A stretch of 64,000 nucleotides of DNA from Poseidonibacter antarcticus (GTDB taxonomy: Bacteria; Campylobacterota; Campylobacteria; Campylobacterales; Arcobacteraceae): contig NZ_RCWF01000003.1 of assembly GCF_003667345.1 (NCBI RefSeq), forward strand, positions 62,001 to 126,000, in the 5' to 3' direction. This document shows positions 13,400-62,777 of this stretch, in pieces. How positions within the stretch are numbered: the first letter of the stretch is position 1; each line of letters starts with the position of its first letter. A model generated the notes under the pieces. The model saw nothing but the letters and a program-made list of their open reading frames with translations. It was not told the DNA's origin and did not search any database. Made by a program: the position numbers and the translations under genes.

Positions 13400-14077
13400 A
13401 TGTTATTGACAAACAGAGAACAAGAAAAGTTGATGATATATACAGCTGCAAAACTTGCACTTGAGCGAAAAGAAAGAGGGTGTAAGCTTAATTTTCCAGA
13501 AGCTACTGCAATTATTACTTCATATATACTTGAAGGTGCAAGAGATGGAAAAAGTGTTGCACAACTTATGGTTGATGCTACAAAAGTTTTAGATGAAACT
13601 GATGTAATGGACGGAATTGCTTCTATGATGGATATGGTTCAAGTTGAAGCAACTTTTGATGATGGTACAAAACTTGTAACTGTTCATAGTCCAATCCAAG
13701 CAAATGATTCAATGGTCCCTGGTGAATATATTGTTGATGATGGTGAAATACAATTAAATGAAAATTGTACTATTGATACAATTGAAGTTGAGAATACAGG
13801 TGATAGACCTATTCAAGTAGGTTCTCATTATCACTTTTTTGAGGTAAATTCTAACCTTAGCTTTGATAGAGAACTAGCTTATGGTAAAAGACTTGATGTA
13901 GCAGCAGGTACATCTGTACGGTTTGAACCAGGAAGTAAAAAAGAGGTTAATCTTGTTGTCTTTACAGGTAAAAGATATATGAGTGGATTTAATGCTTTGG
14001 TTGAGGGTAACTTAGATGATGAATCAACAAAACAAAAAGCAATGCAAAACCTTGCAGTTTTTTTAGGAGAGAAATAA
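13400..14077 (+). CDS. ureAB: Urease fused gamma/beta subunit
   Basis: The 225-residue protein is a fusion of the urease gamma subunit (about residues 1-100: [40 protein letters not shown]) and beta subunit (about residues 110-225: [36 protein letters not shown]). The same gamma/beta fusion occurs in Helicobacter UreA and in Arcobacter. It is a structural part of the (UreAB-UreC) complex that hydrolyses urea to ammonia and carbamate. One base separates it from ureC. The usual upstream accessory gene ureD is absent; xdhC lies there instead. Confidence 0.96.
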
Positions 14078-14078
14078 T

Positions 14079-15779
14079 ATGAAAATTTCAAAACAAAAAT
14101 ATGCTTCAATGTTTGGACCAACAACTGGTGATAGATTTAGACTTGCAGATACTTCATTAATAGCAGAAATTGAAAAAGATTATACAACTTACGGTGAAGA
14201 AGTAAAGTTTGGTGGTGGTAAAACAATACGAGATGGAATGGCTCAAAGTCCAACTGCTGTTGATGTTGCAGATTTGATTATTACAAATGCAGTAGTAATT
14301 GATTATACTGGAATTTATAAAGCAGATATCGGAATCAAAGATGGAAAAATATCAGCAATAGGAAAAGCAGGAAATCCAAATCTATGTGATGGAATTACAG
14401 ATGGTTTAGAAATTGGAGCTAATACAGAGATACTTTCAGCTGAAGGAAAAGTAATAACAGCAGGTGGAATTGACTCACATATTCACTTTATCTCTCCTAC
14501 TCAAATAGATGAAGCCTTATCAAGTGGAGTTACTACAATGGTAGGAGGTGGAACTGGACCAAATACTGGAACTAATGCAACTACTTGTACTCCAGGTGAG
14601 TGGAATATTTCAAAAATGATTGAATCGGTTGAAAACTATCCTTTAAACTTTGGTTTTATGGGTAAAGGGAATTCAAGTTCATATGAAGCACTTCAATCAC
14701 AAATCCAAGCAGGCGCAATGGGTCTTAAACTTCATGAAGATTGGGGAAGTACTCCAAATGCAATTGATACTTGTTTAAAAGTTGCCGATGATTTTGATGT
14801 GCAAGTTGCAATTCATACAGATACTTTAAACGAATCAGGTTTTGTAGAAAATACTGTAGGGGCTTTTAAAAATAGAACTATTCATACTTTCCATTCTGAA
14901 GGTGCAGGAGGAGGTCATGCTCCTGATATTATGAAAGTTGCAGGACTTGCAAATGTATTACCATCATCTACAAATCCAACACTTCCTTATACAAAAAATA
15001 CAATAGAAGAACATCTTGATATGTTAATGGTTTGTCACCATTTAAGTCCAAAGATTCCTGAAGATGTAAGTTTTGCAGAATCAAGAATACGAGGTAAAAC
15101 AATTGCTGCTGAAGATGTACTTCATGATATTGGTGCAATTTCTATTACAAGTTCAGATTCTCAAGCAATGGGAAGAGTAGGTGAAGTACTTATAAGAACT
15201 TGGCAAGTTGCTGATTCTATGAAAAAACAACGTGGTGCCTTAGCTCCTGATACGCAAAGAAGTGATAATACTAGAATCAAAAGATATATCGCAAAATATA
15301 CTATTAATCCTGCAATTGCTTGTGGTATTGATGAGCATGTAGGAAGTGTTGAAGTTGGTAAAATGGCTGACCTTGTTATGTGGGACAGAGCATTTTTTGG
15401 TGTAAAACCAAGTTTAGTAATTAAGGGTGGATTTATTGCCGTTTCTGTAATGGGTGATGCAAATGCCTCAATTCCAACACCAGAACCAAATTTATATAGA
15501 AAAATGTTTGGATCACATGGAAAAGCCAGTGCTAAAATTAGTGCTATATTTACTTCAAAAGTAGCAAGTACAAACTTAAAAGAAAAACTAGGAATTGATA
15601 AACAAGTATTAGCTGTTAAAAATACTAGAAATATCGGTAAAAAAGATATGAAGTTAAATGACTTTATTGGAGATATTGTAGTTGACCCTGAAACGTATGA
15701 TGTTTTCGTTGATGGTGAATTAATCGAATCTGATTATGTTACAACTGTGCCTATGGCTAAAAAATATTTTATGTTTTAG
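14079..15779 (+). CDS. ureC: Urease alpha (catalytic) subunit
   Basis: The 566-residue subunit carries the complete dinickel active site at the classical enterobacterial numbering: H134 and H136 (DSHIHF), carbamylated K217 (GLKLHE), H246 (AIHTD), H272 ([14 protein letters not shown]), flap C319 and H320 (VCHHLSP) and D360 ([12 protein letters not shown]). It should therefore be an active urease if matured. The substrate urea is supplied by allantoicase and ureidoglycolate lyase encoded upstream. The expected next gene, ureE, is displaced by an oppositely oriented KAP NTPase gene of about 1.4 kb. Confidence 0.98.
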
Positions 15780-15795
15780 GAAGTATGATTAGTTT

Positions 15796-15839
15796 TGAAG
15801 ATTTATAATTAGAGTGTTTTTTTCTATTATAAATCTTCA
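15796..15839. terminator. 14-bp inverted repeat after ureC
   Basis: Perfect arms TGAAGATTTATAAT (15796-15809) and ATTATAAATCTTCA (15826-15839) flank a 16-base loop that contains a run of T. It lies between the convergent stops of ureC and the KAP gene and so may terminate both. There is no T-run just outside the stem on either strand, so it could also be a scar of the insertion. Confidence 0.55.
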
Positions 15840-15857
15840 TAGTTAAATTGTTATGCT

Positions 15858-17273
15858 TTAACTTAATTGTCCAGTGTGTTCAACTAAATTAGGATAATTA
15901 AAAATTGATATATTAACTATTTTATCATCCTCATAAGTGCTAGTATCTTCTTCTTTTATTGATTGTTTAATTATTCCTAAAATATTAGATGAAGTTTTAC
16001 TTCTCTTAAAATCTTTGTATTCCATAGAGTAAAATTCAGCGAAAAATGTAATTATTGAAAATAAAGGAATATCATTTTTATTAGATTGAAGTACATGTGT
16101 TTTTACTTTAATATCTGAATAATTAGTATTTATTTCTAACATTAATTCTTCAAATGGTTTATTACTTGTTCTTTTATTTTTTATAATTTCTAAGAACTCT
16201 TTATATCTATTATTATCACTATGTTTTAACATGATTAAAAATAATAAATAAGGTAAATGTATTTTAAATTCTGAATTATATGTAATTCTTATTGCATGTA
16301 AAGAAATCATAACTTGATTTATATCTCTTGGTTTTAAATCAAATAATTCTACGAATAGCTCAAATAGTTTTACTTTTGTATTTACTTTTTCATAAAATCC
16401 TTCTTCTAAAGGTGAAAAGAGTATTTCATCATCTAATAGATTGTACTTTTTAAATAGACTATTTATATATTCATAATTACTAGGAGTTTTTAGCTTATAT
16501 TCTTGGTCGAAAAATCTTTTTAGGTACTTTTCTGATGCAAATTTATTTCCATAAACAGCATTTATTGAGTAAGATAATTGAGTTGAATCTGTTGCTATTA
16601 TAAAATATAAACCTTCTATATCAAATAGATGTTTTATATTTTCAAGTAATTCTATTGCATAGTTAGGTCTACATCTATCGAGTTCATCAATTAAAATAAA
16701 CATTGGTAGTTTTTTATCTTTTAAATCTTCTATAATAGAGTTTATACTATTTTTAAAAACTTTTATACTATTTTTTATCTCAATATGATTCTTTATTAAA
16801 TCTTTTGATAAATTAGTTGTTAATTCTGTAATAGAATCTTGAGTATCATCAGATATATTTGTAATATTCTCTGAAAAAGTCTCTAAGGACATTCCTGTTA
16901 ATTGTTTAACAAAAAAAGAAGCAAATAATGTAGTTGAAGATTTTATGAATTTTTTGGTTTTCGATTCATCGATAATAGGATTATTATCAAATGAATTACT
17001 TATCTCTGATACAAATGCAAGAAGAGGTTCTTTAGTATAATCATTTTTCCATGCATCAAATTCTACAACAGAATAATTCTGCTCTTGTAATTTATTTGAT
17101 AAACTTTTTAAGAAATATGTTTTACCAGAACCCCAATTTGCATTGATATTTAAAACAAATGATTTATTTTCAAATGATGTATCTTTTGATCTACCATATC
17201 TATTTGTTAGATATAATATTAAAAAATCTATCTCATCTTTTCTTTCTAATAAGTCTTCTTCTAAATGATGCAT
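15858..17273 (-). CDS. KAP-family P-loop NTPase inserted in urease operon
   Basis: A 471-residue protein (478 if a TTG at 17294 were used; the ATG at 17273 has a well-placed TTAGGA ribosome site and is preferred). Walker A is ANWGSGKT at about residues 45-52 and Walker B is MFILIDELDRCRP near 191, followed by LLENIKHLFDIEGLYFIIATD, the diagnostic arrangement of KAP NTPases. A weakly hydrophobic stretch lies between them (about residues 115-135), where many KAP proteins carry membrane helices. Some KAP proteins act in phage exclusion (PifA of plasmid F); most have no known role. It interrupts ureC-ureE on the opposite strand, and sampled lines are about 18-22% G+C against about 38-42% in ureC. 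I infer an inserted foreign gene, possibly defensive. Confidence 0.88.
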   Translation of the reverse strand: MHHLEEDLLERKDEIDFLILYLTNRYGRSKDTSFENKSFVLNINANWGSGKTYFLKSLSNKLQEQNYSVVEFDAWKNDYTKEPLLAFVSEISNSFDNNPIIDESKTKKFIKSSTTLFASFFVKQLTGMSLETFSENITNISDDTQDSITELTTNLSKDLIKNHIEIKNSIKVFKNSINSIIEDLKDKKLPMFILIDELDRCRPNYAIELLENIKHLFDIEGLYFIIATDSTQLSYSINAVYGNKFASEKYLKRFFDQEYKLKTPSNYEYINSLFKKYNLLDDEILFSPLEEGFYEKVNTKVKLFELFVELFDLKPRDINQVMISLHAIRITYNSEFKIHLPYLLFLIMLKHSDNNRYKEFLEIIKNKRTSNKPFEELMLEINTNYSDIKVKTHVLQSNKNDIPLFSIITFFAEFYSMEYKDFKRSKTSSNILGIIKQSIKEEDTSTYEDDKIVNISIFNYPNLVEHTGQLS

Positions 17274-17376
17274 AATATTCCTAATCTTAGTCAAGTAGTT
17301 ATAATAATACTAAATAATCAGTATAAAGATAATAAAATAAATTTATATGCTTAATGATTAACAATATTTCAGATAA

Positions 17377-17397
17377 ATTGTTTGTTTTATAAACAAT
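17377..17397. repeat. Dyad upstream of ureE
   Basis: Arms ATTGTTT and AAACAAT with a 7-base spacer lie just upstream of a TATAAT box at 17408-17413. It could be an operator for ureE or for the divergent KAP gene. Confidence 0.35.
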
Positions 17398-17407
17398 GAA
17401 AATAGAT

Positions 17408-17413
17408 TATAAT
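17408..17413 (+). promoter_or_regulatory. Putative -10 box for ureEFG
   Basis: TATAAT in GATTATAAT lies about 46 bases before the ureE start. Having its own promoter would let ureEFG be expressed despite the KAP insertion. No -35 box is evident. Confidence 0.5.
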
Positions 17414-17424
17414 AGTTAAATTTT

Positions 17425-17450
17425 TATACAATTGTATATATATTATATAA
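17425..17450. promoter_or_regulatory. AT-rich palindromes before ureE
   Basis: TATACAATTGTATA (17425-17438) is a perfect 14-base palindrome. Overlapping it, TTGTATA-N5-TATATAA (17432-17450) differs by one base from the palindrome found upstream of both amtB genes, and 18 bases here are identical to the amtB2 upstream region. It lies downstream of the -10 box and touches the ribosome site, so if functional it would act as a repressor site. Confidence 0.4.
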
Positions 17451-17459
17451 GGATATTTT

Positions 17460-17894
17460 TTGATTAAAAAAGTAATAGAAATAAAAAAAGATATTGAATC
17501 TAATGATGAGGTAGAATTATCATGGTTTGATATGCAAAAGCCAAATCTTACAGCTGTATCAAATAATGGTGTGAATTTTATTATAAAAGCAAAATTCACA
17601 CATCTTCATGAAAATGATATTTTAGTTGACGAGGATGGTTATGCAATTAAAGTTAAAAGAAGTGAAGATAATATTTATATATTTGAATTTACTGATGCTT
17701 TAAATTTTGCAAAAGTAGCTTATGAAATAGGTAATAGACATCAACCTGTAATGATTGATGATATGAAAATTGTAGTTTTAGATGATATTTCATTAGCTGA
17801 TATAATTGAAAATGCATATAAAAATGATGATATAAAAATCATTAAAACTACAGGATATTTTAAAGCGAATGGAAAAGCACATCACTCACACTAA
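17460..17894 (+). CDS. ureE: Urease accessory protein UreE
   Basis: The 144-residue nickel metallochaperone delivers nickel to the UreFGD-apourease complex. The N-terminal domain (DEVELSWFDMQKPNLTAV) and the C-terminal peptide-binding domain (FAKVAYEIGNRHQPVMID, where His is the interface metal ligand) are recognisable; a short histidine tail (KAHHSH) ends the protein. The start is TTG with an AAGGAT ribosome site 6 bases upstream; no ATG fits the family N-terminus. It overlaps ureF by 26 bases. Confidence 0.93.
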   Translation: MIKKVIEIKKDIESNDEVELSWFDMQKPNLTAVSNNGVNFIIKAKFTHLHENDILVDEDGYAIKVKRSEDNIYIFEFTDALNFAKVAYEIGNRHQPVMIDDMKIVVLDDISLADIIENAYKNDDIKIIKTTGYFKANGKAHHSH

Positions 17895-18573
17895 TTCAAT
17901 CAAATTAAAATCACTTAGTAGATTTATGCAAATACTTGATGGAACTTTTCCCTCAGGTGTTTTTGTACATTCTTTTGGGCTAGAACCTCATATTGTAAAA
18001 GAAAAAGTAAAAGATATTGATAGTTTAAAAATATATCTTAAAAACTTGATTATTGACCAATATTCTAAAATGGAGTTTGTTTATGTTCAAAAAACATATA
18101 AATATTTATATGAAAATAAATTAGCTTTACTTAAAAAACTTGATAATGAAATTTCTTCATATCTTACATACGAGTATGCAAAAGCATCAAGAGATATTGG
18201 ACATAATTATTATGTTCAAATCAAAGATACTCTTTTAAAAGATGAAGTAAAAGAGTATTTTTCTTTTATAGAAAATAAGAAAAGTGATGTAAATGAATTA
18301 GTTGTACTAGCTTCATATGCGTATGATTTAGATATTAGTATTGAAAATTTTATTGTTATGTGGACTAAGAAAAATCTTATAAATATTGCAGCAACTACAC
18401 TTAAGATATCAAGAATCAAACCCTCTCAAGTACAAAAGATGCTTTTTGAGTTTGATGAAATATTAGAAAATATAGATTTTAATTTTGATAGTAAAATTAC
18501 AAATTTTAATCCACTATTTGAAGAGATAATTTTTGAACATAAAACACTAGAACCAAAAATGTTCGTTACATAA
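17869..18573 (+). CDS. ureF: Urease accessory protein UreF
   Basis: The 234-residue all-helical protein matches UreF, which with UreG and UreD/H forms the complex that inserts nickel into urease. The conserved FMQILDGTFPSGVFVHSFGLE near residue 20 is the family signature (DxxFPxGxFxHSxGLE). It overlaps ureE by 26 bases and ends 13 bases before ureG. The start ATG is within the ureE C-terminal codons; a shorter start is possible. Confidence 0.92.
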   Translation: MEKHITHTNSIKLKSLSRFMQILDGTFPSGVFVHSFGLEPHIVKEKVKDIDSLKIYLKNLIIDQYSKMEFVYVQKTYKYLYENKLALLKKLDNEISSYLTYEYAKASRDIGHNYYVQIKDTLLKDEVKEYFSFIENKKSDVNELVVLASYAYDLDISIENFIVMWTKKNLINIAATTLKISRIKPSQVQKMLFEFDEILENIDFNFDSKITNFNPLFEEIIFEHKTLEPKMFVT

Positions 18574-18586
18574 AAGGAAACAATAA

Positions 18587-19174
18587 ATGAGTTTAAAAAT
18601 AGGAATAGCAGGACCTGTAGGAAGTGGAAAAACTTCACTAATTGAAACTGTTACAAATATATTAAAAGATAAATACAAAATAGGTATTGTTACAAATGAT
18701 ATTTATACAACAGAAGATGCAAATTATCTGAAACAAACACTTGATTTACCATCAGAGCAAATTATTGGAGTAGAAACGGGTGGTTGTCCACATACTGCAA
18801 TTCGTGATGATATTTCTATGAATTTAAAAGCTGTTCAGGAATTAGAAGAAAAGTTTAATCCTGATATTATTTTTGTAGAAAGTGGTGGAGATAATTTGAG
18901 TGCTACTTTTTCTTATGAATTAATTGATTATTATATGTATATAATTGATACTGCACAAGGTGCTGATATTCCAAGAAAAAAAGGTGCAGGTTTACTTTTT
19001 TCTGATTTATTAGTTGTAAATAAAACAGATTTAGCTCCATATGTTGGAGTTGATTTAAAATCAATGGAAGAAGATGTAAAAGCAAATAGAAAAAATAAAC
19101 CTTATGTTTTTATATCAAATAAAGATGAAAAAAGTCTAGCTCAAGTTTTAGAGTGGATTGAAGCATTATCTTAA
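18587..19174 (+). CDS. ureG: Urease accessory GTPase UreG
   Basis: The 195-residue SIMIBI-class GTPase powers nickel transfer to urease. Visible motifs are the P-loop [12 protein letters not shown] at about residues 8-19, the CPH nickel site in [14 protein letters not shown], the switch region [12 protein letters not shown] and the guanine-specificity NKTD. Length is standard. An AAAGGAAA ribosome site precedes the ATG. A LysE-type gene starts immediately after its stop. Confidence 0.97.
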
Positions 19175-62000: not shown

Positions 62001-62777
62001 CTAAATTATTGACACTCTTGCATTTTCAATTTTGATTTTACCTTCTAATTCATATTCAAGTATTGTATCTCCAAATTTTGAAATAGCTTCCTCATAACTT
62101 GGATTTGTATCACAAAAATCAAGGACTTTATCTTTGATTTTTGTTACTTGTGAAGTATTAGTAAATTGTTGAATAAACTCATCAATATCATAAATAGGTT
62201 CTATTAAACCCTTTTTTACTAAGTCTTGTGTTCCTAAACTCTCATTTATTCTATGAGGTAAAGTATAGACTTTTTTACCCATTTTAAGTGCATAATTCAC
62301 AGAAGTTAAACTTCCTGATTTTAAATCAGCTTGGGTAACTATTAAAATATCACCAAGAGCAACAACTATTTCATTTCTTAGTACAAAAGTATAATTCCTA
62401 GCTTTTTCACCTTCTTTATAAGCTGAAAGAACTAAGCCTTTTTCTTCAATATTAGAAATTAGATTTTTATTTACACTTGGGTATCTTATATCTAAACCAT
62501 TTGCAACTACTGCAATTGTATTGTCTTCCCTTGCTGCAAAATGTGAAATAGCATCAACACCCATAGCAGCACCGCTTACAATACAAATATCTAAGCTTGA
62601 TAGTTTTGATGCTAATTTATGAGTAAACTCTTTAGTATAAGCATTTGGACGTCTAGTACCTATTATAGATACTTTTTTCTTTTCTAAAAGTTTTGTATTT
62701 CCTATATAAAAAAGTTCTTTAGGATACTTTTTCATATTATTTAGTTCTTCTATATTAAATGTGACTTTATTAATCAT
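62001..62777 (-). CDS. dprA: DNA processing protein DprA, short form
   Basis: A 258-residue DprA/Smf protein containing only the Rossmann-type ssDNA-binding domain: VSIIGTRRPNAYTKEFTHKL, ICIVSGAAMGVDAISHFAA, VVANGLDIRYPSVN and the C-terminal region with NESLGTQDLVKKGLIEPI. The SAM-like N-terminal domain of longer DprA proteins is missing, usual in this phylum. It protects incoming DNA and loads RecA in natural transformation. Confidence 0.93.
   Translation of the reverse strand: MINKVTFNIEELNNMKKYPKELFYIGNTKLLEKKKVSIIGTRRPNAYTKEFTHKLASKLSSLDICIVSGAAMGVDAISHFAAREDNTIAVVANGLDIRYPSVNKNLISNIEEKGLVLSAYKEGEKARNYTFVLRNEIVVALGDILIVTQADLKSGSLTSVNYALKMGKKVYTLPHRINESLGTQDLVKKGLIEPIYDIDEFIQQFTNTSQVTKIKDKVLDFCDTNPSYEEAISKFGDTILEYELEGKIKIENARVSII

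Follow-up and report, generated by a model that had tools for sequence, protein, structure and literature searches.

Results

A KAP NTPase gene lies within the urease operon

The stretch of DNA analysed here (the window) comprises 64,000 nucleotides of the genome of Poseidonibacter antarcticus (G000), a member of the Arcobacteraceae, and corresponds to positions 62001 to 126000 of contig 3 (C3). A purine-degradation cluster leads into the urease genes (Table 1), all of which were recognised by NCBIfam models with the exception of ureF, for which no match was obtained. The ureD/ureH gene was found at C3:55249-56001, approximately 6 kb upstream of the window and about 20 kb from ureAB with the purine-degradation cluster between them; in the congener P. 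lekithochrous A1R12 (G001), ureD/ureH is close to ureAB.

Table 1. Features of the urease locus and of the loci used for comparison. Positions without a prefix refer to the window; L numbers denote loci from other genomes.
Feature	Position	Strand	Remarks
ureAB (urease gamma/beta, fused)	13400..14077	+	NCBIfam 1.7e-91
ureC, final structural urease gene, left flank of the junction	14079..15779	+	NCBIfam urease alpha 1.4e-295
Hairpin, imperfect repeat	15789-15846		contains 14-base perfect inverted repeat 15796-15809/15826-15839
KAP P-loop NTPase, PDC-S20 family	15858..17294	-	Pfam 1.9e-37; PADLOC PDC-S20 4.9e-91
Walker B / KAP signature FILIDELDRC, residues 199-208	16671..16700	-	D203-C208 invariant (12 homologues)
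Variable segment, residues 96-195	16710..17009	-	39-40% identical to G001
Walker A NANWGSGKT, residues 51-59	17118..17144	-	W54, G55, G57, K58 invariant (12 homologues)
Segment upstream of ureE	17417..17459	+	palindrome TATACAATTGTATA (17427-17450); common to G000, G001, G002
ureE, right flank of the junction	17460..17894	+	NCBIfam UreE 8.1e-14; 87-90% identity with congeners
ureF	17869..18573	+	conserved ureE/ureG position; 81-86% identity across congeners
ureG	18587..19174	+	NCBIfam 3.8e-79
G078 cluster	L064 3966-9581 (G078 C19)		small ORF and PemK/MazF toxin, HSDR_N/N6-methyltransferase, HsdS, DndB-like protein with TIR-like end
Zinc-cluster genes	L129 3640-7695 (G003); L046 6338-7974 (G001); L060 3003-3848 (G002)
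Sulfurospirillum site by dnaQ-like gene	L049 7986-10376; L172 2575-3857; L180 3957-6570

Between ureC and ureE lies a gene on the opposite strand, the product of which is a member of the KAP_NTPase family (PF07693; E 1.9e-37; score 129.5 bits, cut-off 20), in agreement with a preliminary description of this DNA. The open reading frame encodes 478 residues when counted from a TTG codon, although an ATG at 17273 is the likelier start; the P. lekithochrous orthologue begins with an ATG at the aligned position. The gene had been described as much poorer in G+C than ureC, and this holds (22.1% against 34.0%). On the ureE side, however, the contrast is weaker, with low values in ureE (24.8%) and ureF (24.1%) as well, and a G+C content unique within the operon was rejected.

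The 14-base perfect inverted repeat reported directly past ureC was likewise found there, within a larger imperfect hairpin. It occurs once in the window, where 0 occurrences are expected by chance, and folds with a predicted energy of -24.9 kcal/mol (z -6.7). The structure is retained in P. lekithochrous (z -4.7); each of the two genomes has one strong copy, and no other was detected in G000. Situated between the convergent ends of ureC and the KAP gene, the hairpin is probably a two-way terminator. Its use as the end of a mobile element was considered and rejected, given the single copy and the conservation of the hairpin in G001.

Upstream of ureE we identified a segment containing a palindrome and a TATTATA box, shared by G000, G001 and a further congener (G002) and absent from empty junctions. 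We regard it as a probable ureE promoter, and its distribution suggests that ureE gained a promoter of its own when the operon was first opened. A similar sequence, TTTATACAATT, lies just upstream of ureAB and might possibly represent a shared operator. A consensus scan of the insert returned promoter-like sites no more often than in shuffled sequence and no classical terminator; the promoter and terminator assignments therefore derive solely from conservation and folding.

The KAP protein is a candidate single-gene defence ATPase

Both catalytic motifs are intact, with little variation across 12 homologues. A defence-family search and structure prediction were among the checks suggested in the preliminary description. 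The best match in the defence library was PDC-S20, a computational family that PADLOC lists as a single-gene phage defence candidate (HMM E 4.9e-91). The alignment is near full-length, covering residues 12 to 460 and model positions 17 to 434 of 464, and is made by a single gene. In the literature searched, no paper using the name PDC-S20 was found. The AlphaFold model of the protein (mean pLDDT 73.5) most closely resembles, among solved folds, that of RdrA from the RADAR system (Foldseek 2.8e-05; Z 16.6 over 305 residues). All other folds scored Z 13.6 or below, with Orc/Cdc6-type AAA ATPases at approximately 13 and AAA ATPases in general at 12 to 13. A fold in common with RdrA would not in itself imply a common function. 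A search of solved structures by sequence yielded no convincing relative, and viral and phage collections contained distant relatives only.

In many KAP proteins the ATPase domain is interrupted by membrane-spanning helices, a feature that is common but not required. In six homologues, no stretch of 19 residues had a Kyte-Doolittle value above 1.6. Transmembrane anchoring was accordingly set aside and the protein is probably cytosolic; since the helices are not a requirement, its membership of the KAP family stands.

As a paper on Campylobacter records, KAP proteins include phage-immunity proteins and often decay to pseudogenes; KAP genes are also found on plasmids and prophages (PMC3995785). 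The gene described here might be a selfish or neutral passenger, all that remains of a failed defence gene from a plasmid or prophage and tolerated without present function, and several of its relatives are indeed broken. Against this, the gene is intact in two species whose proteins are 78% identical, its catalytic motifs are invariant, and the comparison of G000 with G001 gives a dN/dS of about 0.39, such that the gene is under purifying selection. We consider the passenger explanation unlikely.

Divergence between the two orthologues is concentrated in residues 96 to 195, between the Walker A and Walker B motifs, identity being 86-92% elsewhere. In the model most of this segment has a pLDDT below 50. 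Its dS is raised too (0.68), which fits replacement by a divergent allele, and positive selection on the segment was not established. In two further pairs of orthologues, the excess variability of this segment is moderate in one and barely present in the other. We propose residues 96 to 195 as a candidate sensing segment.

Related KAP genes are patchily distributed and mostly solitary

PDC-S20-type matches (E<=1e-30) were present in 27 of 397 Campylobacterota genomes, representing 20 of 68 genera, and in none of 14 control genomes. The distribution is patchy; some of the matches are broken, and the weaker ones are longer, Qat-like proteins of about 630 residues. The KAP gene had a lower G+C content than the mean of its neighbours in all 27 loci examined (mean difference -9.9 points, p 1.5e-8; 7 points in G000). 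Most of the loci inspected consist of a lone KAP gene amid housekeeping genes such as dnaA-dnaN-gyrB, serS, metF and pdxA (names assigned by eye). One relative resides within a type I operon, hsdM-hsdS-x-KAP-x-hsdR (L181 262-10403), and another near a PDC-S05 candidate gene.

The KAP site of one Sulfurospirillum genome (G311) holds other content in its sister G055. Downstream of a dnaQ-like gene in this genus (Table 1), two species carry a KAP gene and a third carries different genes. One of the two also has a HEPN/MNT-like pair at this site, identified by eye.

The ureC-ureE junction accommodates different cargo

Among 104 Arcobacteraceae genomes, 41 contain ureC. The genes ureC and ureE, said in the preliminary description to run without a gap, are normally 10-46 bp apart in this family (median 24). 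A tight junction was also seen in the other Campylobacterota families sampled that have ureE downstream. The generalisation fails for the Helicobacteraceae, in most of which this position is taken by a co-directional gene similar in size to ureI, which we take to be ureI as in H. pylori. Gene-sized inserts interrupt the ureC-ureE junction in 4 of 40 Arcobacteraceae operons and the other three urease junctions in 0 of 119 cases (Fisher p 0.0036); one opening may underlie three of these four cases, which would leave perhaps two independent events and makes this p value optimistic.

The nature of the insert differs between genomes. The KAP gene is the only cargo in G000, whereas P. lekithochrous carries the 5' remnant of hisI, pyrC2, an 89-residue gene (p89) and the KAP orthologue, and G002 a 281-residue porin-like gene. 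In G078, from another Arcobacteraceae genus, the junction holds independent cargo in the form of a 5.6-kb restriction/MazF/TIR-like cluster. A HupE-like gene (named by eye) begins at the junction of G024, where the contig ends. Two congeners, G005 and G006, have an empty 10-bp junction. Most urease operons of the family have no KAP gene, and G000 and G001 provide the only two urease-linked copies known. The junction is therefore the site of an accessory gene, as had been anticipated.

The preliminary description went further in viewing the operon as a landing site for a single-gene defence element. A dedicated mobile defence element of this kind, site-specific for ureC-ureE and ending in the inverted repeat, would account for the joint occurrence of repeat and KAP gene in G000 and G001 and the absence of both from empty sites. 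The insert, however, contains no integrase or transposase open reading frame, and neither a target duplication nor repeated ends were seen. The repeat is single-copy and present at one end only, and KAP relatives occupy unrelated sites, each beside different housekeeping genes. We judge such an element very improbable. What survives of the proposal is a lone accessory gene, compositionally foreign and belonging to a defence candidate family, at a junction that has received independent defence cargo in G078. Non-defence cargo is found there as well (zinc-starvation genes, a porin gene, ureI), indicating a generally tolerant junction as opposed to a defence-specific one. It seems to be a place where cargo can be exchanged, and not the target of one dedicated mobile element.

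Part of the cargo belongs to a zinc-starvation type cluster

Apart from KAP, the cargo of G001 and G002 corresponds to parts of a zinc-starvation type cluster that is whole in the urease-less genome G003, where it comprises hisI2, pyrC2, queD2, p89, znuA and a porin gene (some names assigned by eye) and has palindromes of the form TGCAACTnnGTTGCA. HisI, PyrC and QueD paralogues are known members of the Zur regulon (PMC2770081). The hisI-like 5' remnant of G001 adjoins ureE (L046 6338-6624). In the same genome pyrC2, p89 and the KAP gene are co-directional (L046 7705-9458), with 47 bp separating p89 from KAP and zinc-box-like palindromes upstream, and the KAP gene may accordingly be co-expressed with them in zinc starvation. 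The pyrC2 gene of G000 lies elsewhere (C2:3738-4754) and is intact; its classification as a pseudogene was rejected, as the stop codons belong to the box upstream of it.

The arrangement in G001, with urease genes adjoining and paralogues in the cluster of kinds known from the Zur regulon, raises the question of whether the KAP protein serves metal or urease metabolism, for instance as a metal-stress ATPase, instead of defence. Yet the whole cluster of G003 includes no KAP gene, most urease operons of the family do without one, no zinc-type box was found near the KAP gene in the window, and relatives elsewhere stand beside unrelated genes. A metabolic role of this type is highly unlikely.

The flanking urease genes have recombined

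Trees of the two halves of the operon conflict: ureABC groups G002 with G005, while ureEFG groups G001, G005 and G006. Each alignment rejects the tree of the other (AU p <1e-30), and gyrB rejects both. Furthermore, gyrB is 99% identical between G005 and G006 but their ureC dS is 0.60, from which we conclude that species have exchanged urease genes. A single insertion inherited cleanly along the species tree was ruled out, as the junction states are at odds with both the gyrB and the urease trees.

Between G000 and G001, dS is lowest near the junction (0.20 in the last sixth of ureC, 0.13 in the 3' quarter of KAP, 0.36 in ureE). It is 0.34 over the whole KAP gene and higher in ureAB (0.70), ureF (0.96) and gyrB (0.51); this trough is modest and was estimated on few codons. 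The conflicting trees make homologous recombination in the flanking genes a likely route of cargo exchange, and the evidence for that route is suggestive. What the tree conflict shows is recombination of the flanks; joint movement of the KAP gene goes beyond it.

Discussion

We favour the view that the gene is a lone, horizontally acquired candidate defence ATPase of the PDC-S20 family at an insertion-tolerant ureC-ureE junction, with recombination in the flanks as the likely route of exchange, and assign this reading a probability of about 0.62. The KAP gene would have been acquired horizontally and lodged where the structural half of the operon (ureABC) meets the accessory half (ureEFG). Its product would sense an infection-specific molecule, perhaps via the variable segment, whereupon ATP hydrolysis or assembly would likely lead to aborted infection, by analogy with PifA, QatA and RdrA. 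The insertion would be tolerated because it lies past the structural genes, is closed by the two-way hairpin and leaves ureE with its own promoter. Species would probably swap cargo through homologous recombination in the conserved urease flanks and not through an integrase.

A broader model, which we advance only tentatively as one possibility, is that PDC-S20 KAP proteins are self-sufficient defence nomads that lack mobility machinery, sit in housekeeping-operon junctions and spread by recombination of flanking core genes. The ureC-ureE junction would then be one exchange point, for defence or metal-stress cargo, and the P. lekithochrous copy would have come under a zinc-starvation operon.

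The KAP gene joins a known candidate family; of greater interest are the junction and the variety of cargo found there. The same junction may be empty or hold a candidate defence ATPase, zinc-starvation genes or, in another genus, a restriction/toxin cluster, and so constitutes a natural experiment. It allows tests of how lone defence genes spread when they have no mobility machinery, and of whether PDC-S20, solitary at most loci here, is really anti-phage. Conserved metabolic operons can, moreover, hold defence candidates that are missed by searches restricted to defence islands.

Comparison with known systems

The preliminary description had invoked PifA, the F-plasmid protein that excludes phage T7. 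Kinship extends to the KAP ATPase domain, and PifA is a single-gene exclusion protein, but the match is weaker and partial (1.8e-19; model positions 37 to 343 of 720). The remaining part of PifA is missing from the KAP protein, and full-length homology was not found. QatA of the Qat anti-phage system similarly has the KAP ATPase domain in common (about 1e-15), although the score of 56.9 bits falls far below the NCBIfam cut-off of 600 and the 478 residues compare with a model of 628 positions; the qatBCD partners are absent beside the KAP gene, where the adjacent open reading frames are urease genes. Both matches are confined to the ATPase core. The protein therefore belongs with neither PifA nor the Qat proteins.

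RdrA, an AAA+ defence ATPase (PMC9994260), has the closest solved fold at 16% identity but is considerably longer (approximately 830 residues versus 478). Its adenosine deaminase partner gene, rdrB, is likewise absent beside the KAP gene, which has urease genes as its neighbours. The insertion of ureI in Helicobacter offers a positional parallel, with a gene between that of the urease large subunit and ureE; ureI, however, encodes a co-directional urea channel serving urease, whereas the KAP gene is unrelated and on the opposite strand. The closest correspondence is with PDC-S20 itself, which is matched over nearly its full length by a single gene of about 480 residues, and for which the location within a urease operon is new here.
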